DNA of 20,657 nt from a virus: IMG/VR virus record IMGVR_UViG_3300036045_000524, positions 1 to 20,657 of that record. The stretch is one strand, 5' to 3'. The translations under genes were made by a program, and so were the position numbers. A model generated the notes under the pieces. The model was not told where the DNA came from, ran no database searches, and saw nothing but the letters and a program-made list of their open reading frames with translations. Positions 1 through 16,644 of this stretch are shown here, in pieces; the stretch's first letter is position 1, and each line of letters starts with the position of its first letter.

Positions 1-1572
1 TCAAGGACGCGACCCGTACCCGCATAAAGTGGTATCGCTCACAATGTCACCGACGGGTAGTCGGGAGAGGTCCACGACCGAGGAGAGCTGCCAGCGGGGA
101 TCGTGGCCGTGCCGCCAGACCTGGACGCGGATGCCGAGCAGGTCCATCAGCAGGCGTCGCTCCTCCCAGGTGAGCGCGTCGAGGTTCGCGGCCATGCGGG
201 CGCGCCAGGCGTCGAGATCGAGGAGCTGCCGGCGCGAGGCGTGCAGCGCGGCCTGGCGGGCGAGGAGCTGCTCGCGCTCGGCGTCGACGGCGCGCTGCTG
301 GCGGGTGGACTGCTCTAGCTCGCGGAGGAGCAGCGCGGCGGCCTGGTCGTCGTCGGTGAGGGCGATCCGGCGGGCCAGTCGATCGAGAGTACGGCTGATC
401 TCGGCGGTGCGAGCGTCGAAGCCGCTCAGCTCGTCGGGGCTGGCGGTGTCCTGCTGGAGATCAGCCAGCGCCTCTTGGATCACGCCCGGCTGGGTCATGA
501 TCATCCGGACGTGCTCCCAGACGATCCTATCGAGCCGCGGGGCGCTGATGGTCGGGACACTGTCACAGCTACGGGTGTCGCGCGGACGGCGCGATTGGCC
601 ACAGACATAGTCGCTGACCTTGCTGGCATGGGGCCGATGGACCATCGTCCAGCCACAGACCCCACAGCGCGCGTAGCCGCCCCGGAGGAGCGCCGCCTCC
701 GGGGTTTGCGCGTTGCGCGTCGCCCGGGCCTGGTTGGCGGCGAGGGTGGTCTGGACGGCCTGCCAGGTGGGGCGGTCGATGATCGGCGGGACGGTACCCT
801 CTGGGAGGCGGTGGGCCTTCTCCAGATCCAGCCGCTGGCTGTAGCCGGGCTTGGAGCGGTTGTAGCCCCAGCCGTAGGCGTCGCCGGCGTAGGCCGGGTT
901 GCGGAGGACGTTCCGGACGGTGGTGAAGCTCCAGGTGGCCTTGCCAGTCGGGGAGGGGATGCCGGCGGCGGCGAGCTCGGCGACGATGCCCCGGATGGTG
1001 GCCCCGCCGGCGTGGGCGGCGTAGATCTGGCGGACGACGACGGCCTCGGGCGCATGGATGTCGAGCTGGCCGCGCTGGTCGTCTCGCCAGCGGTAGCCGT
1101 AGAGGGGCTTGCCGGTCGGCAGCAGTTTGCCCGACTGGACGCGGGCGAGCTTGCCCCTGGTGGTGCGTTCTCTGATCTTCTCGTGCTCGATCTCGGCCGC
1201 GAAGGCGCGGGCACTGCGGATCAGCCGGCCGACTGGGGTGTTCTCGAAATCCTCGGTGACGAAGGCGAGGCTGACGTCATGCGTCTCCAGCTCCTCGACC
1301 AGGATGTAGAGGTGGGCTTGGTGACGGCTGAGGCGATCCACCGCGTAGCAGAGGACGATGTCCACTGCGCGGGCACGGACCAGCTCCCGGAGGGTCGAGA
1401 GGCCAGGGCGCTCCTGATACTGCGTGCCGGTGTGGGCGTCTCGGAAGACGCCGACGACCTCCCAGCCCCGCCCGGCGGCGTACTCGCGGCAGCGGGCTTC
1501 CTGGGTGACGAGGGAGGTGCCGTCCTCCTCCTGCTGGGAGGACGACACGCGGCAGTAGATCGCGCAGCGCAT
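1..1572 (-). CDS. int: Large serine recombinase (phage integrase)
   Basis: Site-specific recombinase that would join attP to attB through a serine-DNA intermediate. The 523-residue protein has the resolvase N-domain first (about 1-150): YCRVSSSQQ places the nucleophile at Ser10 with Arg8, and DRLSR (79-83) supplies further active-site arginines. A recombinase domain follows (about 155-290), then a zinc beta-ribbon with Cys303, Cys306, Cys324 and Cys336, and a charged helical coiled-coil region (about 385-450), the usual order for large serine integrases. I chose the ATG at 1572 because the N-domain begins exactly there. The frame stays open for 42 more codons, but these lie inside the upstream nuclease gene. 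No clear Shine-Dalgarno is visible; the upstream gene stops 4 nt before this start, so translational coupling is likely. The window begins at its stop codon, so the adjacent attachment site is not visible. Confidence 0.96.
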   Translation of the reverse strand: MRCAIYCRVSSSQQEEDGTSLVTQEARCREYAAGRGWEVVGVFRDAHTGTQYQERPGLSTLRELVRARAVDIVLCYAVDRLSRHQAHLYILVEELETHDVSLAFVTEDFENTPVGRLIRSARAFAAEIEHEKIRERTTRGKLARVQSGKLLPTGKPLYGYRWRDDQRGQLDIHAPEAVVVRQIYAAHAGGATIRGIVAELAAAGIPSPTGKATWSFTTVRNVLRNPAYAGDAYGWGYNRSKPGYSQRLDLEKAHRLPEGTVPPIIDRPTWQAVQTTLAANQARATRNAQTPEAALLRGGYARCGVCGWTMVHRPHASKVSDYVCGQSRRPRDTRSCDSVPTISAPRLDRIVWEHVRMIMTQPGVIQEALADLQQDTASPDELSGFDARTAEISRTLDRLARRIALTDDDQAAALLLRELEQSTRQQRAVDAEREQLLARQAALHASRRQLLDLDAWRARMAANLDALTWEERRLLMDLLGIRVQVWRHGHDPRWQLSSVVDLSRLPVGDIVSDTTLCGYGSRP

Positions 1573-1576
1573 GAGG

Positions 1577-3091
1577 TTACGGCAAGCTCTCGCAGGCGAC
1601 GCCGTCACCGTCCTGGTCAAGGCCGTACGGATCAGATCCCGGACCACCGCCGTTATCCTCAAAGAATTCCTGGGCCTCATCCTGGGTGTCAAAATCACTG
1701 CAATTCACGTCGCCACTCGGCGGAGGTGGATTGGGATTCGGAGGCTCGGTTGGGGTCGCCGTTGGTGCTGGTGGCGGAGTCGGTGTCGAGGTCGGCTCCG
1801 GAGTCGGTTCACCGTCCTCGCACGCTGACCAGAGCCCGCGGCCCTGAGCCTGCGCTTCGGACTGAGCCGCCGCGAACTGCTGGCTGTAGGCGACGTCTGG
1901 CGGGTAGGTGCTGGCGTAGGCGTATCCCTCGCGCACGAGCCAGTCGTTGACCATGATGCCGTCCACCCAGACGTAGCGTAGCAGCCGCCCGAACTGGTCG
2001 GTCTCCGAGACATCTCGCTGGAGCTCGACCATGCGCCCCTCCACCAGTGCCGCGTTGGCGTCGGTTGCCTCTTGTCCATAACACTCGAGTCCGCCCGAGA
2101 CCTCCGGTGTGTCGATCCCGATGTAGCGGACGCGGTACTCAACTCCGTCGATCAGCACGTCGATGGTGTCGCCATCGATGATGTCGACCACCTGCGCCGG
2201 CTGGCGTGGCGGCGTGGGCTGATCACCATAGCGCCAATCGTGATAGTGCTGTCCAACGTTGCCGGCCTCGACTTGCCACTCCGACGCGTTGGTCGGCGTG
2301 TAGGTCAGGCAACGCCGCTCGAAACACTGGAGCAGGACATCCTTCGGCACGCCGCCGACCGCGACCATGGTCCAATATGCCTCAGTGATCGGCCGGCCAG
2401 TCGCGAAGAAGGGATTTTCGAAGAGCGGCGCTTCGAGGTAGCCGCTATCCTGGTAGACGACGCCGCGACTGGTCATGAACGTCCAGAAGGGCGTGGCAAT
2501 GTAGTGGTTGGTGATGTCGTCATAGGTGCCGGTTCGGACACCCCAGGAGCCGAGCGCTGGGTCATCGCTGACCTGGCCGTCCTGGCCGACCCGCTCGGTG
2601 ATCAGGGCATCCGCCGTGCCCTGGTCGTCTCGCAGTCCAGCGAGCGTCGCGTAGGTGATGCTCGCGCCTGGGTCGCCGGCGACGCCGATCTCGGCTGGCT
2701 GGCGCTCCTCGAATTGGTCGTCGCCGACCTGCATCCGGCCGGTCATCAACTCGACCACCAAGAGACCGTTGGTGACGTACCAGATCGAGTTTTGATCCCC
2801 ATCGGGATAGGTGATCTCCATCCGGGCCTTGTCGTAGTACTGGACGGTCCGCACGCCGCCCGGCGACTCGGCGTAGGGCTCGGAGAGCGCTCCCGTGTTG
2901 GCCTGGGGTCCCCACATCCAGGTGCGGATCGCCCGGCCTTCGGCGACCGGCTTGTCAGTCCGGTCCCAGGTCGCCTGAAACGCCGGGGTTGCCGGGACCT
3001 CGGCCGTCGCCACGATGGCTGAAGTCAGCACCAGTAGGGAGCTCAACATCAGCACGATCCAGCGGTAGTGCTGGTGGAACAATCCTCGCAT
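1577..3091 (-). CDS. Secreted or anchored thermonuclease with Excalibur domain
   Basis: Probable calcium-dependent extracytoplasmic nuclease of 504 residues. A hydrophobic signal or anchor segment covers about 10-30, with ATA before a likely cleavage site. Residues about 31-295 form a domain ending in [21 protein letters not shown], which I recall from Thermomicrobia/Chloroflexota secreted proteins; its function is unknown to me. Residues about 299-424 are a staphylococcal-nuclease domain with the catalytic set present: Asp308 in DGDT, Arg322 and Glu330 in [10 protein letters not shown], and Arg369 in DQFGR. A Pro/Thr linker (427-460) leads to an Excalibur domain (461-504) with DxDxDGxxCE at 492-501 and Cys464/Cys500 to pair. 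The ATG at 3091 is preferred over the one at 3121 because GAGGGG lies 7 nt upstream of it. It is co-oriented with repressor, peptidase and integrase, so expression during lysogeny is expected. Confidence 0.93.
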
Positions 3092-3139
3092 TACATTCCC
3101 CTCTCTACAGTTGGACGCCAATAAACTCGCCTTCCTCCT

Positions 3140-3499
3140 CTACATGCTTCGGAACGACTCCGACCATATTGGGAACCTCTCGGCAAACAAATTCGCCTGT
3201 ACCTCAAACTTCGTTACCGTGAGATTCCCCTGTGGCCGCGTCATCCACCAATGGAATGATCCCGCGTGAAGAAGATAGTGGCCGATCTCGTGCCAGGCCG
3301 CTCGGGCCTGGACAATCCGGTGCCAGCGCGTCGAGACGATCAGGTGCCCCTTGATAATGTAGGCTTGTACATGGCACGGGAGATCAAAGAATGTGACTGT
3401 GAGTCCCAACTGTTCGGCGCAGTCCGGCCACTGATCATAGCGGAAGCATCCGAGAGATTTGCGCAACCGCTGGATACAGTCCTCTACTACCCAGCCCAT
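3140..3499 (-). CDS. ImmA/IrrE-family metallopeptidase
   Basis: Probable zinc peptidase that inactivates the phage repressor on induction, as ImmA does to ImmR in ICEBs1-type elements. The 119-residue protein carries HEIGH at 70-74 (HExxH) and a downstream Glu99 in FEVQANLFAERF, the usual third zinc ligand and helix of this family (Peptidase_M78). The N-terminal half (LGLTVTFFDLP...GHLIVSTRW) has the family's strand pattern. It starts 8 nt after the repressor stop codon and is clearly in the same operon. It is shorter at the C-terminus than many family members but has all the catalytic elements. That it acts on the neighbouring repressor is inferred from gene order. Confidence 0.9.
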   Translation of the reverse strand: MGWVVEDCIQRLRKSLGCFRYDQWPDCAEQLGLTVTFFDLPCHVQAYIIKGHLIVSTRWHRIVQARAAWHEIGHYLLHAGSFHWWMTRPQGNLTVTKFEVQANLFAERFPIWSESFRSM

Positions 3500-3507
3500 A
3501 GCCGACC

Positions 3508-3855
3508 CTAGCCCTGCTTGCTGAGAATTTGCTGTGCGATGGCGATAAGGACGTGTTTGTCCTCGTCGGTGAGTTTATCCGAGCTGGTGGCCCAGAAATG
3601 GGTGAACGGGTCAGCCAAATCGTCCTCTTCCCCCGATGTATTGACTAACCGATGTACCGGAACACTGAGAGCATCGGCTATTCTGACCAACGTCGAGAAC
3701 GATGTCGCCTTCGTCCCCTGCTCAATCTGGGTCCAGTAGGACCGTGACAACGCCGCTTTGTCGGCTGCCTCCCGCTGAGTCAAGCCGATGGTGCCTCGAA
3801 ATTCCTTGATTCGCGCACCGAGTTTACGGCGGTCTATAGACTCCTTATCCTCCAT
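3508..3855 (-). CDS. XRE-family lysogeny repressor (ImmR/CI-like)
   Basis: Probable phage repressor of 115 residues. Residues about 11-70 are a Cro/CI-type HTH: ARIKEFRGTIGLTQREAADK, then SRSYWTQIEQG as the recognition helix region. The acidic C-terminal tail (76-115) has no LexA-type peptidase domain, consistent with inactivation by the adjacent ImmA-like peptidase rather than by self-cleavage. The start is uncertain. ATG 3855 follows GGGAG at only 2 nt spacing, and a possible -10 (TACACT, 3868 to 3863) would make the transcript nearly leaderless, as for lambda cI from PRM. ATG 3885 would add 10 residues but directly abuts the operator. It is divergent from the Cro-like gene at 3938. Confidence 0.88.
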   Translation of the reverse strand: MEDKESIDRRKLGARIKEFRGTIGLTQREAADKAALSRSYWTQIEQGTKATSFSTLVRIADALSVPVHRLVNTSGEEDDLADPFTHFWATSSDKLTDEDKHVLIAIAQQILSKQG

Positions 3856-3862
3856 GTCTCCC

Positions 3863-3891
3863 AGTGTATCGGCAGGGGTTGACATGAGTAA
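3863..3891 (-). promoter_or_regulatory. Weak repressor promoter candidate
   Basis: On the minus strand TTACTC (3891 to 3886) and TACACT (3868 to 3863) are 17 bp apart. The -10 matches the consensus at four positions, while the -35 is poor and overlaps the operator. Initiation 7 nt below the -10 would fall at the ATG at 3855. This is offered as the maintenance promoter of the repressor; the weak -35 could mean it needs activation by the bound repressor. Confidence 0.3.
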
Positions 3892-3908
3892 CACTAGAGT
3901 GTTACTTT
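3879..3908 (+). promoter_or_regulatory. Early rightward promoter candidate
   Basis: A perfect -35 TTGACA (3879-3884) is followed after 18 nt by TACTTT (3903-3908), with TG one base upstream giving an extended -10 (TGTTACTTT). Transcription would start near 3915 and read into the Cro-like gene at 3938, whose Shine-Dalgarno AGGGAGGT lies at 3923-3930. The 20-bp palindrome sits between the two promoter elements, so a bound repressor would block the polymerase. Confidence 0.6.
3887..3906. promoter_or_regulatory. Candidate repressor operator, 9-2-9 inverted repeat
   Basis: AGTAACACTAGAGTGTTACT consists of two perfect 9-bp inverted arms around an AG centre. It lies in the divergent region between the repressor and the Cro-like gene, inside the spacer of the rightward promoter and over the presumed -35 of the leftward one. 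This is the expected position for a CI/Cro-type operator controlling both directions. It was read directly from the sequence; binding is inferred. Confidence 0.75.
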
Positions 3909-3937
3909 TAGGAACATGATGTAGGGAGGTTAGAGAC

Positions 3938-4222
3938 ATGACGCAAGCCCGCCTAATCGAGATCCTGGATGAACGCCGAAAAGCCGAAGGGTGGACCGAC
4001 GCACGATTCTGTGAGGAGGTTGGAATCAACCGGACAACGTGGTCGCTCGCGCGGTCCGGTCATCGGCAGATCAGTCGGCGGACTCTATCGGCGCTTACCC
4101 GGCGCTTCCCAGAGTACGCTGACCAGTTCGTCTTTTTTTTGGTTTCTGATGTTGATAATAGCGACTGTAAGGTTTCCAGTATCACCCTTTCCCCTCTCGT
4201 CGCGGAGCCGGCCGGTGTCTAG
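3938..4222 (+). CDS. Cro-like HTH protein
   Basis: Small DNA-binding protein (94 residues), first gene of the early operon and divergent from the repressor, the position of Cro. Residues about 4-57 show the XRE fold: LIEILDERRKAEGWTDARF, EEVGINRTTWSLARSGHRQ as turn and recognition helix, then RRTLSALTRRFP. The tail after residue 65 is hydrophobic then polar and looks unrelated to the family. It is encoded by a strikingly AT-rich stretch containing eight consecutive T (4133-4140). Loss of one base there would move the reading frame into the open frame of the next gene, up to 4406. AGGGAGGT is 7 nt upstream of the ATG. Its role as Cro is inferred from position. Confidence 0.8.
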   Translation: MTQARLIEILDERRKAEGWTDARFCEEVGINRTTWSLARSGHRQISRRTLSALTRRFPEYADQFVFFLVSDVDNSDCKVSSITLSPLVAEPAGV

Positions 4223-4406
4223 CACTCCACTAGCAACCGACCAGCCCATTGCCGGCCAGCTCCCGGCGCGGGAGGAGCCAAGCCCGGAGGAGGCGTTCCT
4301 AGCCGTCCTCAAGGCGCTCACAACCATCGCTGAGCAAGCCAGTATGGCCGCAGCGGACATGCAGATCATCATGGAGCACATGCCTGCTGAGGAGTCCGAG
4401 TCATGA
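4215..4406 (+). CDS. Small early protein, unknown function
   Basis: A 63-residue protein from a GTG start; I do not recognise it. The start is supported by GGAG (4204-4207) 7 nt upstream and by an 8-nt overlap with the end of the Cro-like gene. The stop TGA overlaps the next ATG as ATGA, the typical coupling in this operon. The C-terminal two thirds (PSPEEAFLAVLKALTTIAEQ, then a Met-rich stretch) is predicted helical and amphipathic with an acidic end. Small, charged proteins at this place in other phages include excisionases and antirepressors, but nothing here proves either. The same frame is open upstream through the T8 tract of the preceding gene. Confidence 0.6.
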   Translation: MSSTPLATDQPIAGQLPAREEPSPEEAFLAVLKALTTIAEQASMAAADMQIIMEHMPAEESES

Positions 4407-6952: not shown

Positions 6953-7556
6953 GGCGCTGATCCCGGCCGAGACGGCCCAGGCGGCGGCGCGGGACCTCCT
7001 GGCGCTGCTGGAACCGGCCTGTGCCCGGCTTGAGATCGCCGGCTCGCTGCGGCGGGGCGTCGAGGCGGTCAAGGACGTCGAACTGTGCGCCGCCCCGTTG
7101 ACGGACGCGATCCAGAGCGGGCTGTTCGGCGAGACGCAGACGGTGAGCCGGCTAGAGGGCCTGGTCGCGTCGCTGCTCCGGATCGGGCGGCTGTCGCCCC
7201 GGCTCGACACGAACGGGGTGCAGCGGCTAGGGCCGCGCTACAAGGCGCTGCTGTATCAGGAGATCCCGGTCGACCTGTTCATCACCGACGCGGCGCGGTG
7301 GGGCGCGATCTACGCGATCCGGACGGGACCGAGCGGGTTCAGCCATCTCTGCGTGACCTCGCGCGCGCTGGATGGGGCGATGCCGTACGGGATGCGGCAG
7401 CAGGACGGCGGGCTCTGGCATGGCGACATGCAGTTGGAGACGCCCGAGGAGGAGGACTGGTTCCGCGCGCTCGGCCTGCCCTGCTGGCCTCCTCATGAGC
7501 GGACGGAGGAGCGCCTGCGGGCGTACCTCGGCGAGCGACGGGAGGCGCGGCGATGA
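6942..7556 (+). CDS. Pol X-type nucleotidyltransferase
   Basis: A stand-alone phage nucleotidyltransferase (204 residues) of the DNA polymerase beta palm type, likely adding nucleotides to DNA ends or filling gaps. IAGSLRRG (32-39) is the GS motif. Asp45 and Glu47 in KDVEL, with Asp111 in VDLF, give the metal-binding acidic triad. RWGAIYAIRTG (119-129) and the C-terminal LGLPCWPPHER (178-187) match the usual ending of phage Pol X proteins, so it appears complete. The 8-kDa lyase domain and PHP domain of cellular Pol X are absent. ATG 6942 is chosen because GGAAGG lies about 10 nt upstream; an in-frame ATG at 6924 would add six residues. It overlaps the previous gene by 11 nt. Confidence 0.85.
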   Translation: MTDRALIPAETAQAAARDLLALLEPACARLEIAGSLRRGVEAVKDVELCAAPLTDAIQSGLFGETQTVSRLEGLVASLLRIGRLSPRLDTNGVQRLGPRYKALLYQEIPVDLFITDAARWGAIYAIRTGPSGFSHLCVTSRALDGAMPYGMRQQDGGLWHGDMQLETPEEEDWFRALGLPCWPPHERTEERLRAYLGERREARR

Positions 7557-7774
7557 GGGGGACTGAGCGGCGGTCCGCGTTGCTCGCGGCCATCGAGCAG
7601 TACTGGGCGCGGCACGGCTACGGCCCCTCGATCCGGGACCTCGTGGCGATGACCGGCTGGAGCAGCACGTCGGTGGTGGATTACCACCTCCGGGAGTTGC
7701 ACGGCCATGGGCTGATCGACTGGGATCGACGGGTGGCGCGGTCGATCCGGGTTCGAGAGCGGGTGGCGGCGTGA
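7553..7774 (+). CDS. LexA-like winged-helix protein
   Basis: A 73-residue protein consisting of only a winged HTH of the LexA N-terminal type: helix 1 ALLAAIEQYWARHGYGPSIR, then DLVAMTGWSSTSVVDYHLRE as the recognition helix, then a short wing (GLIDWDRRVARSIRV). The S24 autoprotease half of LexA is missing, so it cannot self-cleave. It may act as a transcription factor or compete with host LexA at SOS boxes. Start and stop overlap both neighbours by 4 nt (ATGA upstream, GTGA downstream), so it is translated with the nucleotidyltransferase and methyltransferase. Confidence 0.8.
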   Translation: MRGTERRSALLAAIEQYWARHGYGPSIRDLVAMTGWSSTSVVDYHLRELHGHGLIDWDRRVARSIRVRERVAA

Positions 7775-9714
7775 TCGAGGCTGAGCCGGGACTGCAACTC
7801 GCGCCCCCCTTCCCCTGGTTCGGAGGAAAGTCAAGACGAGCGGCTGACATCTGGGCGCGGCTGGGTGACCCGACCAATTATTGTGAACCCTTCGCCGGGG
7901 CGCTCGGCTGCCTGCTCCAGCGTCCCCACCCGCCCCGGATCGAGACGGTCAACGACATCGACGCCTACATCTGCCTGGCTCCAGAGACTCGGTTGCTGAC
8001 TGAAGATCTGCGATGGAAGCCATGCGTTGATGTTGCCGTTGGAGACCGATTGATCGGGTTCGATGAATTCAACACAGGCCAGCCTGTGGGCAAGTTCGGT
8101 GCTCCAAGTCGATATCGACATTGGCAAATGACGACAGTTACAGCAGTCCGGCGCGTCGTCAAGCCGTGTTATCGCTTGACGTTTGATGATGGGACCACGG
8201 TGGTTGCTTCAGCTGACCATCTCTGGCTGGGAGGTTCTCACCGACCAGGAAATCATGGTGGACGTGGATGGCGGTGGCTAAAAACCGAGTCGTTGGTCTG
8301 TAATCGGGCGACGCAGCGCAGTTGGATATTGAAACTCTGCGATGTCATAGAGCCTGAAGACTCATACGATGCCGGGTGGCTAGCAGGCTTTTTTGACGGC
8401 GAGGGCAACTTCCGTAAAGCGCCAGGCTGGCGTGTTGGAGTGACACAACGTTTAGGGTTGGAAGCCGATCGAGCGCAGCGGCTACTGATTGAGCGTGGCT
8501 TTGACCTGGGAATTACCCGCAGTGTTCAAGAGCGCAATCATCCGGTGCTCAACATCTGTATCAACGGTGGCATGCGGGAAACGTTGCGATTCCTGATGCT
8601 GACGAGACCTGAACGATTGATTCGGGCTTTTCAGGTCCAAATCCCGCACTTGTCACTGTATGCCCGCGCTCGCCAGGCAGTTGGGCTTGTAGCCAAAGAG
8701 TTCCTTGGAGACCTGGAAGTCGTCGCTATTACCACCGAGTCTCATACGTTTGTGGCAGAAGGACTCGCATCTCATAACTGCAACGCCTTCCGCGCCATCC
8801 AGCACGATCCCGACGCGGTGGCCCACTACGCCGACCGGCCGGTTTTTGAGTCGGACCTGCACGCCATCCATAGCTGGCTGATCCGGACCGGGCGAGAGCG
8901 GGTGGCGCGGATCGAGGGCGACCCGGAGTACTACGACGCCCAGGTGGCGGGCTGGTGGCTGTGGGGGATCTGCTGCTGGATCGGCTCCGGCTGGTGCTCG
9001 GGACGCGGCCCGTGGCAGGTGGTCGACGGGATGCTGGTGGATAGCCGCGTTGAGGGGGATTTTCCGGGAGACGCCCGTACCGGCGTCGAGCGAGCCCGCC
9101 CCCACCTGAGCCATGCAGACGGTCAGGGCGTCCTCCGCCAGGGTGTCGAGCGCAAGCGCCCGTCGCTGGGCGGCGACAACGCCGGGCGCGGGGTGAATCG
9201 GAAGGTCCCGCTCACCAGTGGGCGGGACTACGGGCGGGGTGTCACGCGTCCGATGCCGCACGTCAAGGGCGACGACGCTGGCCTGGGCGTGAACCGCCCA
9301 GGCCAGGACCTCACCGCCTACATGCGGGCACTCAGTGACCGGCTCCGGCGCGTCCGGGTCTGCTGTGGGGACTGGACGCGGGTGATGGGGCCGAGTGTCA
9401 CCACCGGCCACGGTGTGACGGGCATCCTGCTGGATCCGCCCTATCGCCAGTATGGCCGCGCCAGAGACCTCTACCGGATGGAACGCGACCTCAACGACGA
9501 CGTGATGGCCTGGGCGCTGGAGCACGGGGACGATCCCAGGCTCCGCATCGCGCTGTGTGGGCTGGTCGATGAGTACGCCATGCCCGAGACCTGGGAGCGG
9601 GTGGTCTACCGGACGACGGGGATGCGCAGTGACGGCCAGGAGGCGATCTGGTACTCGCGGCACTGCCTGCGGCCGGCCGAGGCGGTGACGCAGATCGGGC
9701 TGGGGGGGCTATGA
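7771..9714 (+). CDS. DNA adenine methyltransferase interrupted by an intein
   Basis: Precursor of 647 residues from a GTG start. After removal of the 269-residue intein (68-336) the mature enzyme would have 378 residues. It is a D12-class N6-adenine methyltransferase: FPWFGGKSR (14-22), CEPFAGALG (38-46) as the SAM-binding motif I, NDIDAYI/CNAFRAI across the splice junction, and the catalytic DPPY at 555-558. Between about 437 and 510 lies a tandem repeat with a 16-residue period. A host-type restriction partner is not present, so a role in protecting phage DNA or in regulation is more likely than a restriction-modification pair. The exteins have the high G+C of the neighbours; the intein does not. 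The start overlaps the LexA-like gene by 4 nt and the end overlaps the initiator gene by 4 nt. Confidence 0.92.
   Translation: MIEAEPGLQLAPPFPWFGGKSRRAADIWARLGDPTNYCEPFAGALGCLLQRPHPPRIETVNDIDAYICLAPETRLLTEDLRWKPCVDVAVGDRLIGFDEFNTGQPVGKFGAPSRYRHWQMTTVTAVRRVVKPCYRLTFDDGTTVVASADHLWLGGSHRPGNHGGRGWRWLKTESLVCNRATQRSWILKLCDVIEPEDSYDAGWLAGFFDGEGNFRKAPGWRVGVTQRLGLEADRAQRLLIERGFDLGITRSVQERNHPVLNICINGGMRETLRFLMLTRPERLIRAFQVQIPHLSLYARARQAVGLVAKEFLGDLEVVAITTESHTFVAEGLASHNCNAFRAIQHDPDAVAHYADRPVFESDLHAIHSWLIRTGRERVARIEGDPEYYDAQVAGWWLWGICCWIGSGWCSGRGPWQVVDGMLVDSRVEGDFPGDARTGVERARPHLSHADGQGVLRQGVERKRPSLGGDNAGRGVNRKVPLTSGRDYGRGVTRPMPHVKGDDAGLGVNRPGQDLTAYMRALSDRLRRVRVCCGDWTRVMGPSVTTGHGVTGILLDPPYRQYGRARDLYRMERDLNDDVMAWALEHGDDPRLRIALCGLVDEYAMPETWERVVYRTTGMRSDGQEAIWYSRHCLRPAEAVTQIGLGGL
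7972..8778 (+). mobile_element. LAGLIDADG intein in the methyltransferase
   Basis: In-frame protein intron of 269 residues that should excise itself and join the two methyltransferase halves. Block A begins with Cys68 (CLAPETRLL). Block B is TVVASADHLWL with His150 and Ser in place of the usual Thr three residues before it. A homing-endonuclease motif AGWLAGFFDGEG is at 201-212; I see only one clear LAGLIDADG motif. Block F is LEVVAITTESHTFVAEG and block G ends in His335-Asn336 followed by Cys337. All splicing residues are present. Base composition is lower than the flanks: 33 of 60 G+C in 8041-8100 against 42 of 60 in 9001-9060, which supports separate ancestry. Confidence 0.93.
9082..9297 (+). 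repeat. 48-bp-period coding repeat in the methyltransferase
   Basis: The protein motif GV[ENT]R recurs at residues 438, 458, 474, 490 and 506, spaced 20, 16, 16 and 16 residues, each followed in most copies by a Pro, then Gly/Asp-rich residues. The coding DNA therefore repeats with a 48-bp period from 9142 on. Copies are diverged. It lies between the second conserved block (WCSGRGPW) and the VCCGDW/DPPY region, so it is an insertion in the target-recognition part of the enzyme. Confidence 0.7.
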
Positions 9715-14080: not shown

Positions 14081-14494
14081 ATGCCGTACCGTCCAGCCAC
14101 GCCATGCCGACACCCTGGCTGCCCCGCCCTCACCCATGACGGTTACTGTCCGCTGCACCAGAGAGTCCGGCTTGACCGCCGTCCCTCGTCAGCACGTCGA
14201 GGCTACGGCTACGGGTGGCAGGTGCTCCGCGCGCAGGTCCTCGGTGAGGAGCCCGCCTGCCGGGGGTGTGGGCGTCCGGCGACGGAGGTGGACCACATCG
14301 TTCCATTGGCCGAGGGTGGCACGCACGCCCGTTCTAACCTCCAGTCCCTCTGCCGGAGCTGCCATGCCAAGAAGACCCGCGCCCAACGGGAGGGGCGGGT
14401 AAAAAGTTGTGACAATAATCACAATCTAGACCGCCGCCCCCACACTGCTCAGACGACCGCGAAATCGGAGGGGAAAAAGTCCGGTGGTTGGTAG
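14081..14494 (+). CDS. HNH endonuclease, packaging-associated
   Basis: A 137-residue HNH nuclease of the type found beside terminase genes in HK97-like phages, where it assists genome cleavage during packaging. Zinc ligands are Cys60/Cys63 (CRGC) and Cys91/Cys94 (CRSC). The active site is EVDHIVPLAEGG with Asp71-His72, followed by Asn86 in SNLQSLC and His95. An additional N-terminal CRHPGC...YCPLH pattern (9-26) looks like a second small zinc site. The C-terminal tail (about 105-137) is polar and encoded by a locally AT-rich segment carrying a CRP-like site. It overlaps the small terminase gene by 11 nt. Confidence 0.93.
   Translation: MPYRPATPCRHPGCPALTHDGYCPLHQRVRLDRRPSSARRGYGYGWQVLRAQVLGEEPACRGCGRPATEVDHIVPLAEGGTHARSNLQSLCRSCHAKKTRAQREGRVKSCDNNHNLDRRPHTAQTTAKSEGKKSGGW
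14408..14423. promoter_or_regulatory. CRP/FNR-type operator candidate
   Basis: TGTGACAATAATCACA has the perfect TGTGA-N6-TCACA architecture of CRP-family sites, with T and A flanking symmetrically. The 6-bp centre is AT-rich in an otherwise G+C-rich region. It lies in the tail of the HNH gene, 60 bp before the small terminase start. It may be fortuitous because it is coding sequence (K-S-C-D-N-N-H-N). Confidence 0.35.
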
Positions 14495-14972
14495 GCAGCC
14501 GAAGCCGACCGCTTTGAAGGTGCTGCACGGCAATCCGGGCAAGCGCCCACTGCCTGCCAGCGAGCCAAAACCGCCGCAAGGAGCAGCGAAACCGCCCTCC
14601 TGGCTGGGGAAAGATGCGCGGCGGATCTGGCGGATGGTCGCGCCGACGCTGGAGCAGATGGGATGTCTGACGACGGCCGATACCCACGCCTTCGCGCTGC
14701 TGTGCGACGCCTACGCCGAGTACCAGGCCGCGCGCAAGGTGATCGATGACAAGGGCGCGACCTATGAGTCCGTCACCGAGCACGGTTCGATCATGATTCG
14801 CCAGCGACCGGAGGTGGCCATCGCGGCCGACGCCTGGAGGCGGGTCGAGCGGATGATGACCGGCTTCGGGATGACGCCGAGCTCACGCGGACGGGTCCAG
14901 GTCCCGCAGAAGGCGGACGAGAAGAGCCCATTCGAGGAGTGGTTGAGTGGTAGTAGTAGCCGCGCCAGTTAG
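14484..14972 (+). CDS. terS: Terminase small subunit (P27 family)
   Basis: DNA-recognition subunit of the packaging motor, 162 residues from a GTG with GGAGGGG 9 nt upstream. The Gly/Pro-rich basic start GRQPKPTALKVLHGNPGKRP is the hallmark of P27-type small terminases. The helical core follows (APTLEQMGCLTTADTHAFAL, then LLCDAYAEYQAARKVI), with the RQRPEVAIAADAWRRV and FGMTPSSRGRV blocks toward the end. It is complete in length. It overlaps the HNH gene by 11 nt and the large subunit by 26 nt. Confidence 0.92.
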   Translation: MVGRQPKPTALKVLHGNPGKRPLPASEPKPPQGAAKPPSWLGKDARRIWRMVAPTLEQMGCLTTADTHAFALLCDAYAEYQAARKVIDDKGATYESVTEHGSIMIRQRPEVAIAADAWRRVERMMTGFGMTPSSRGRVQVPQKADEKSPFEEWLSGSSSRAS

Positions 14973-16644
14973 GAGCCAGACGACCGCCTACGCGGAATCG
15001 GTCGTCGCCGGTGAGATCGTCACCGGGCGGCTAGTCCGGCTGGCGTGCGAGCGGCATCTCACCGATCTCCAGCTAGGCCACCTGCGTGGGCTTCGATTCG
15101 ACGAAGAGGCGGCCGAGCGATCCATTCGGTTCTTCGGATTCCTGCGCCAGTCCAAGGGTGAGTGGGCCGGTCAGCCGTTGGAGCTCCAGCCTTGGCAGGC
15201 GTTCATTGCCGGGTCGGTGTTCGGCTGGAAACAGCGCGACGGGACGCGACGGTTCCGCTCCGCCTACAACGAGATCGCCCGGAAGAACGGGAAATCGACC
15301 CTCAGCGCCGGCATCGGACTCAAGCTCGCATTCTTCGATGACGAGCCAGGGGCCGAGGTGTATGCCGCGGCGACCAAGCGCGACCAGGCGATGATCGTCT
15401 GGAGCGAGGCGAAGCGCATGGTCGAGAAGACGCCGGAACTCCGGGGGATGATCCGCGCCTTCGTCGGGAATCTCCACCGGGAGGAAACCGCCTCGAAGTT
15501 CGAGCCGCTGGGGGCCGACGCCGACACGTTGGACGGGCTCAACATCCACGGCGGGATCGTCGATGAAGTGCACGCCCACAAAACCAGGGCGGTGCTGGAC
15601 GTGCTCGAAACGGCGACCGGCTCACGGCTTCAGCCGCTGATCTTCTACATCACGACCGCCGGCTACGACCGGACCTCGGTCTGCTGGGAGCTGCACGAGT
15701 ACTCGACCAAGGTCCTGGAGGGCCTGGTCGAGGACGATTCGTTCTTCGCCTACGTCGCGGCGCTCGACGAGGGCGACGACTGGACCGACGAGACCGTCTG
15801 GGTGAAAGCCAACCCGAACCTGGGCGTGTCGGCAAAGCTCGACAAGCTTCGGCAGGAGTGCAAGCGGGCGCAGGAGGTGCCCGGCCGGCAGAACGCGTTC
15901 AAGCGGCTGCACCTCAACGTCTGGACCGAGCAGGCCGACCGCTGGATCGACATGACGCGTTGGGACGAAGGCGATCTGGCCGTCGATCCAGGCGAACTCG
16001 CCGGCGCGACGTGCTTCTGCGGCCTCGACCTCTCGACCACGACCGATATCACGGCATTCGTGGCCGTTTTCCCGGACGACAGTGACGGATTCGACGTGTT
16101 GGCGCACTTCTGGGTTCCGGAAGAGGGGATTCGAGCGCGTGCCCGGCGGGACCGGGTGCCCTACGACCTCTGGGAGAGCCAGGGCTCCATCACCGCGACC
16201 GAGGGCAACGTCGTCGATTACGACGCGATTCGGGAGCATATCCGGGAGTTCGCCGAGCGCTACCGGGTGGTCGAGATTGCCTACGACCGCTGGAACTCGA
16301 CGCAACTCGTGACCCAGCTCCTCAAGGACGGCGCGCCAATGGTGCCGGTCGGTCAGGGGTTCGCCTCGATGGCCGGGCCGATGCGCGACCTCGAGGGGCT
16401 CATCGTCAGCCGGCGGCTCTACCACGGTGGCAACCCCGTCCTGCGTTGGATGGCGGCCAATGTCGCGGTCGAGCAGGACCCGGCCGGCAACCTCAAGCCC
16501 TCGAAAGCCAAATCTACCGAAAAAATCGACGGGATCGTCGCGATGGTGATGGCGGTGGGACGGGCGATGCTCCACCAAGAGCAGCCCGACGACACGCCAG
16601 CACCGCCAATGTTTTTCCTTCCGGGGGTGAACATCCGTGTCTGA
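14947..16644 (+). CDS. terL: Terminase large subunit (HK97 type)
   Basis: Packaging ATPase and nuclease, 565 residues from a GTG. The ATPase domain has the adenine-motif region QPWQAFIAG (81-89), Walker A ARKNGKST (111-118), Walker B IVDE (204-207) and a coupling motif near ITTAG (235-239). The nuclease domain has Asp361 in GLDLSTTTD, Asp447 in AYDRW and Asp528 in EKIDGIVA, the RNase H-like metal-binding set. Length and motif order match full HK97-type enzymes. It follows the small subunit with a 26-nt overlap and precedes the portal with one small membrane gene between. Confidence 0.96.
   Translation: MVVVAAPVRSQTTAYAESVVAGEIVTGRLVRLACERHLTDLQLGHLRGLRFDEEAAERSIRFFGFLRQSKGEWAGQPLELQPWQAFIAGSVFGWKQRDGTRRFRSAYNEIARKNGKSTLSAGIGLKLAFFDDEPGAEVYAAATKRDQAMIVWSEAKRMVEKTPELRGMIRAFVGNLHREETASKFEPLGADADTLDGLNIHGGIVDEVHAHKTRAVLDVLETATGSRLQPLIFYITTAGYDRTSVCWELHEYSTKVLEGLVEDDSFFAYVAALDEGDDWTDETVWVKANPNLGVSAKLDKLRQECKRAQEVPGRQNAFKRLHLNVWTEQADRWIDMTRWDEGDLAVDPGELAGATCFCGLDLSTTTDITAFVAVFPDDSDGFDVLAHFWVPEEGIRARARRDRVPYDLWESQGSITATEGNVVDYDAIREHIREFAERYRVVEIAYDRWNSTQLVTQLLKDGAPMVPVGQGFASMAGPMRDLEGLIVSRRLYHGGNPVLRWMAANVAVEQDPAGNLKPSKAKSTEKIDGIVAMVMAVGRAMLHQEQPDDTPAPPMFFLPGVNIRV

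Follow-up and report, generated by a model that had tools for sequence, protein, structure and literature searches.

The closest described relatives of the intein reported here reside in unrelated proteins. Terminase-like proteins of C1 (Bxz1-like) mycobacteriophages carry inteins of the ET08 gp239 type, which show homology over the full length of our intein (269/269 residues), are likewise 269 aa long, and have Cys1, an SHN/THN end and one LAGLIDADG motif, but differ in their ~34-38% identity, their terminase-like host and a Ser at the +1 position. Portal-protein inteins of Gordonia phages (Jormungandr gp8) also show full-length homology, one motif and an HN end, and differ by 34-35% identity, the portal host and a +1 Thr. 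The Rv2578c-type radical SAM inteins (NCBIfam NF038136) match the whole insert (E = 9e-18), but their host is a cellular radical SAM protein. In a reporter assay, splicing was observed for Pham3880-g, the type of intein in C1 terminase-like proteins (PMC5050341). From its cluster, annotation and gene number, ET08 gp239 would belong to the same family as ScottMcG gp245 (Pham3880-g), and this experimentally spliced type of relative is only ~35% identical to the intein studied here.

Inteins in phage DNA methyltransferases have been described in mycobacteriophages, where DNMT-1/2 inteins contain a LAGLIDADG endonuclease (PMC5050341, PMC9957025) and their history has been treated in detail (PMC9957025). 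The DNMT-1/2 host Dorothy gp75 is an N6_N4_Mtase (PF01555, E = 2.4e-30), in contrast to the PF02086 extein of our locus, and its intein matches ours weakly and over 33 residues only. In the open-access literature we found neither an intein in a D12/Dam methyltransferase nor related inteins a few residues apart. A preliminary reading made from the DNA letters (hereafter the sequence-only reading) had considered a D12-class methyltransferase, at its conserved NDxD block, an unusual place for a phage intein; this needs the correction that inteins in phage DNA methyltransferases are published, although of the N6_N4_Mtase kind. As regards location, the inteins of a protein are usually close kin when they share a site and often strongly diverged when their sites differ (PMC2814812), and at the MCM-d site a +1 proline, as opposed to serine, goes with resistance to invasion (PMC10643990).

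The window analyzed here is the whole 20,657-nucleotide IMG/VR virus record IMGVR_UViG_3300036045_000524, read on one strand, 5' to 3'. It harbors a D12-class adenine methyltransferase gene with an insert in frame (Table 1), and the open reading frame runs through all of its 647 codons without interruption. The GTG start of the methyltransferase overlaps the stop of the upstream gene, and the two are probably translationally coupled.

Table 1. Coordinates of the methyltransferase precursor gene, its parts and its upstream neighbor in the window
Feature	Position	Strand	Details
Small HTH gene	7553..7774	+	Matches to phrog_3502 and phrog_362 (transcriptional repressor); stop overlaps methyltransferase start
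Precursor gene, D12-class adenine methyltransferase with in-frame intein	7771..9714	+	647 aa, GTG start
N-extein	7771..7971	+	67 aa; FGGK AdoMet motif 7819-7830, NDID 7951-7962
Intein	7972..8778	+	269 aa, precursor residues 68-336
Splicing (HINT) domain, N-terminal part	7972..8364	+	Cys1 codon 7972-7974; block B His83 codon 8218-8220
Single LAGLIDADG homing-endonuclease core	8365..8649	+	Residues 132-226 (model); LAGFFDGEG at 8380-8406
Splicing domain, C-terminal part	8650..8778	+	TIGR01443; His268-Asn269 codons 8773-8778
C-extein	8779..9714	+	311 aa; first residue is the +1 Cys (8779-8781); DPPY motif 9433-9444

The intein begins CLAPETRLLTEDL and finishes ...FVAEGLASHN, after which comes Cys, and the joined extein of 378 aa reads ...ETVNDIDAYI/CNAFRAI..., where the slash marks the junction. 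The lengths, junctions and joined sequence put forward by the sequence-only reading for a low-G+C intein were thereby confirmed to the base, as was its claim that the exteins rejoin cleanly: 82 relatives of the joined protein (the 80 best viral contigs and two phage records) can be aligned gap-free over the junction, and the insert is missing from all of them. At the position that follows the window's insertion site, these methyltransferases, with the window counted (n = 83), have Ala in 59 cases, Ser in 12, Cys in 7, Val in 3, and Thr and Ile in one each. When the insert was searched against inteins, NCBIfam intein models and known phage inteins matched it end to end. The rSAM_Rv_intein model covers residues 67-339, and with them the whole insert (E = 9e-18), at a score far under the cut-off set for the whole protein, as there is no radical SAM portion here. 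The intein_Cterm model (TIGR01443) matches above its cut-off.

Joining the exteins also settled the identity of the host. The full open reading frame before joining yielded Pfam matches to MethyltransfD12 and LAGLIDADG_3 that were both sub-threshold; the joined extein passes the gathering cut-off of PF02086 (23.4 bits, cut-off 22), and the E-value for phrog_56 (DNA methyltransferase) went from 3.5e-13 before joining to 4e-19 after. This match supports the earlier assignment of the host to the D12 class and of the site to the conserved NDxD block. The FGGK, NDxD and DPPY motifs are all present in the window's methyltransferase, and ETVNDxDxxxxNFWRA is among the best-conserved segments in 40 aligned relatives, with N52 and D53 invariant. 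The host fold was examined on a model of a close empty relative (L006) standing in for the window protein (mean pLDDT 76, low confidence mainly in the variable region 149-223). In this model a strand (48-53) terminates at NDxD and is followed by a helix (56-67), and E. coli Dam has the same fold (Z = 20.4, 2.8 A over 226 residues). The nearest known host enzymes are E. coli Dam, DpnM and T4 Dam, which share the FGGK, NDxD and DPPY motifs at ~14% sequence identity. In Dam enzymes, the acidic motif after the strand that ends in NDxD contacts AdoMet. The unspliced precursor is expected to be inactive because the intein would split the cofactor pocket.

The residues proposed earlier for splicing are all in place, with Cys1, block B His83, and His268-Asn269 followed by Cys in an SHN/C junction, and the four intein residues are invariant across 42 related inteins. 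Block B reads SADH, with Ser where Thr is usual three positions before the His; the same Ser is found in relatives including the Gordonia one. A class 3 intein was considered and rejected on the presence of Cys1. Judged by these residues and the matches above, the insert is identified as an intact intein of the class 1 type that resides in the gene for a methyltransferase of the Dam/D12 class, and we take its presence in the window as not due to chance. The AlphaFold model of the intein (pLDDT 92.3) displays HINT beta segments split around one LAGLIDADG unit. Its splicing domain resembles the Ssp DnaB mini-intein (Z = 18.3, 1.8 A over 132 residues) and Mtu RecA and other inteins (Z ~18).

The endonuclease core is complete in the model, with an alpha-beta-beta-alpha-beta-beta-alpha order of elements (H132-144, E145-150, E152-160, H163-174, E179-186, E190-197 and H200-211). 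Its match to PF14528 is weak in the window intein (E = 0.0085, 16.8 bits, cut-off 22.5) and reaches 22.4 bits in the intein of contig L153, described below. All five D12 inteins known to us from this study retain the LAGLIDADG motif and its acidic Glu144 (DGEG), and the one-motif build is conserved among related inteins. The single core is thus the normal build of this intein family and not a sign of decay; the complete core in the model led us to reject the decaying half offered as one option by the sequence-only reading. By analogy with known single-motif LAGLIDADG enzymes, the single core suggests that the endonuclease may act as a dimer. A search of the target for dyad symmetry gave no clear pseudo-palindrome, the best arrangement pairing 6/11 positions, weakly and off-centre.

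The intein is distinctly lower in G+C (54.5%) than the extein parts (66-71%) and the 600-base flanks (~71%), and its GC3 is 52% as compared with 78-88% in the exteins. Only one in 397 sliding segments of 807 nt in the window is as low. Within the intein family, 49/57 members (window counted) are below their own flanks, by a mean of 4.7 points over the family, and the window intein has the second most extreme deficit. Since low G+C relative to the flanks is shared by so many of the family, the recent arrival that had been read from it does not follow; the low G+C is compatible with a donor of lower G+C and gives no date for the arrival.

A second island of low G+C (~55%) is located at 3000-4250 and contains genes for an ImmA-like metalloprotease (3140-3499, minus strand) and an XRE-type repressor (3508-4029, minus strand). 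Together with a serine integrase gene in the same region (1-1698, minus strand), these form a temperate phage immunity/integration region. Between the integrase and ImmA-like genes lies a gene for a large protein (1577-3121, minus strand), into which the integrase open reading frame, as listed, extends with its 5' end. Residues 311-437 of the large protein match a nuclease domain (phrog_20876), and a further C-terminal match, to phrog_27159, spans residues 470-512. Elsewhere in the window, an HNH endonuclease gene (14081-14494) directly precedes the genes for the terminase small (14484-14972) and large (14947-16644) subunits; next come genes for the portal, head protease and capsid.

Further carriers were sought by scanning two degenerate junction patterns against 2.9 million viral contigs. 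Both patterns coincided in exactly two contigs, L153 and L154, each encoding a D12 methyltransferase whose intein occupies the same site as in the window. A profile scan added two D12 carriers, L152 (intein 55% identical) and L155 (51%), so that four further D12 carriers, on other viral contigs and with inteins ~51-56% identical to the window's, are at hand. The sequence-only reading had missed these four carriers and, with them, a second insertion site 9 bp away. Exact peptide patterns from the insert alone recovered no relatives among the viral contigs, the patterns probably being too strict. A profile of the five inteins gave nothing at E = 1e-20 in 396 genomes of Actinomycetota (the phylum of L126, which may not be that of the phage's host), and a plasmid search gave no match.

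Inteins in the window, L153 and L154 occupy site a, NDxDxx[ILV]/CN, and those in L152 and L155 occupy site b, NDxD/C[FY], three codons (9 bp) upstream. The joined readings at site b are NDMD/CFVANFWRAL and NDLD/CYLANFWRSL, and a separate junction pattern for this site detected the same two contigs only. The site-b reading is not forced, since insert-less relatives have the same Cys (L048 and L024 for L155; L067, L062 and L054 for L152). Site b holds a Cys in 31 of the 83 methyltransferases and site a in 7, with no enzyme having both (chance of no overlap = 0.03, a statistic that ignores relatedness). All five inteins directly precede the sole Cys of the two positions in their host. Most simply, this lineage of inteins would be restricted to those places within one conserved target that offer a usable +1 nucleophile.

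When 75 inteins were placed in a tree, those of the D12 enzymes formed a single clade of five (100/100) with no non-D12 intein inside, and the same clade was recovered at 100/100 in a tree of 25 rows. The site-b inteins L152 and L155 paired at 100/99 in the larger tree, and this pair nested weakly with the site-a intein of L153 (91/41 with 75 inteins, 84/72 with 25 rows); monophyly of the site-a inteins was not rejected (AU p = 0.56, 25-row tree). In a quick version of the host tree, the hosts of the five inteins were scattered and formed no clade, with five label changes, at least three of them forced by starred branches. The L155 host paired with the empty L048, and the L152 host fell inside a starred 15-row clade that was otherwise empty. 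One intein clade in scattered hosts means either that the intein was transferred among divergent methyltransferases or that it was lost a great many times. Pairwise identities among the five carriers are similar for inteins (~52-68%) and hosts (48-63%), and therefore the moves are not dated as recent.

Outside the D12 genes, compact relatives of these inteins, mostly of 238-286 aa, occur in a wide range of phage proteins, portal and terminase-like ones included. Single-motif inteins on four contigs (L162, L163, L164 and L167; 4001 onwards) share the site DY/CN in a large phage protein, with ~630-650 aa ahead of the site. Three related inteins (L192, L193 and L199) are located in short proteins, 46-53 aa after the start and 89-97 aa before the end, amid AAEKAV-type repeats, a site that does not look conserved and is unusual for an intein.

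Overall, the data are very probably best explained by a class 1-type self-splicing homing intein with one LAGLIDADG core, of a single lineage that occupies two points in Dam-like methyltransferases. Family membership by sequence, the junctions, the predicted fold, the clade and both sites come directly from the data, and from the residues, model and relatives of the window intein we infer splicing, DNA cutting and homing. Splicing would proceed by an N-S acyl shift at Cys1, transesterification to the +1 Cys and cyclization of Asn269, with His83 and His268 assisting, and would convert a precursor presumably without activity into the free intein and a 378-aa methyltransferase. As judged from the family, the endonuclease core, probably dimeric, would cut intein-less D12 genes at ETVNDxDxxxxNFWRA, and the intein would be copied into the cut gene. 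In different phages, the one lineage lies at two points of this gene 9 bp apart, each time directly before the Cys codon that the host has available.

An ordinary in-frame domain insertion in the methyltransferase, for instance a target-recognition extension that is never removed, would agree with the continuous open reading frame across the insert, but it is exceedingly improbable in view of the presence of every splice-junction residue, the full-length homology to inteins of unrelated proteins and the interruption of the NDxD motif region. We rejected it on the gap-free junction of the 82 relatives that lack the insert. It is unlikely, too, that splicing has been kept while the endonuclease core is inactive, so that the intein is fixed, inherited vertically and persists as it is not cleanly losable. 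A LAGLIDADG_3 match under the family cut-off, the similar intein and extein identities among carriers and the lack of a detectable symmetry in the DNA target would all fit such an element; against it are the motif with Glu144 in all five D12 inteins, the complete core in the model, the dispersal of carriers among intein-less methyltransferases and the placement of the hosts of the site-b inteins in two different clades.

How the two sites came about is a more evenly balanced matter. Two independent invasions by a related intein from outside the gene are quite conceivable, if somewhat short of an even chance, given that the sample contains only five D12 inteins, that relatives were drawn from a limited set through pattern scans, and that the AU test allows monophyly of the site-a inteins (p = 0.56). 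The 100/100 clade of D12 inteins, free of non-D12 members whether 75 or 25 inteins are compared, speaks against them, and two hits within 9 bp would be a coincidence unless the specificity of the endonuclease directed both. For the single-lineage origin, we put at even chances the proposal that the lineage shifted its point of insertion by three codons exactly, settling before whichever position has Cys. A possible route would run through microhomology of a TGC codon in the recipient with the TGC codons at the two ends of the intein. If this is true, the position of an intein would be set by the +1 nucleophile needed within a shared endonuclease target, and not fixed once.

What is new here is the presence of four more D12 carriers and of two sites within one intein clade. 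Dam-like adenine methyltransferases, which are common phage genes thought to act in anti-restriction, join the hosts of phage inteins, and five natural carriers together with many natural empty alleles of the D12 methyltransferase are now available. That one clade uses two sites separated by three codons runs counter to the pattern of divergent inteins at different sites (PMC2814812). The D12 sites offer a ready test of the +1 nucleophile versus the endonuclease cut in deciding the position of an intein, for which the +1 proline of MCM-d (PMC10643990) is a precedent of limitation by the +1 residue.
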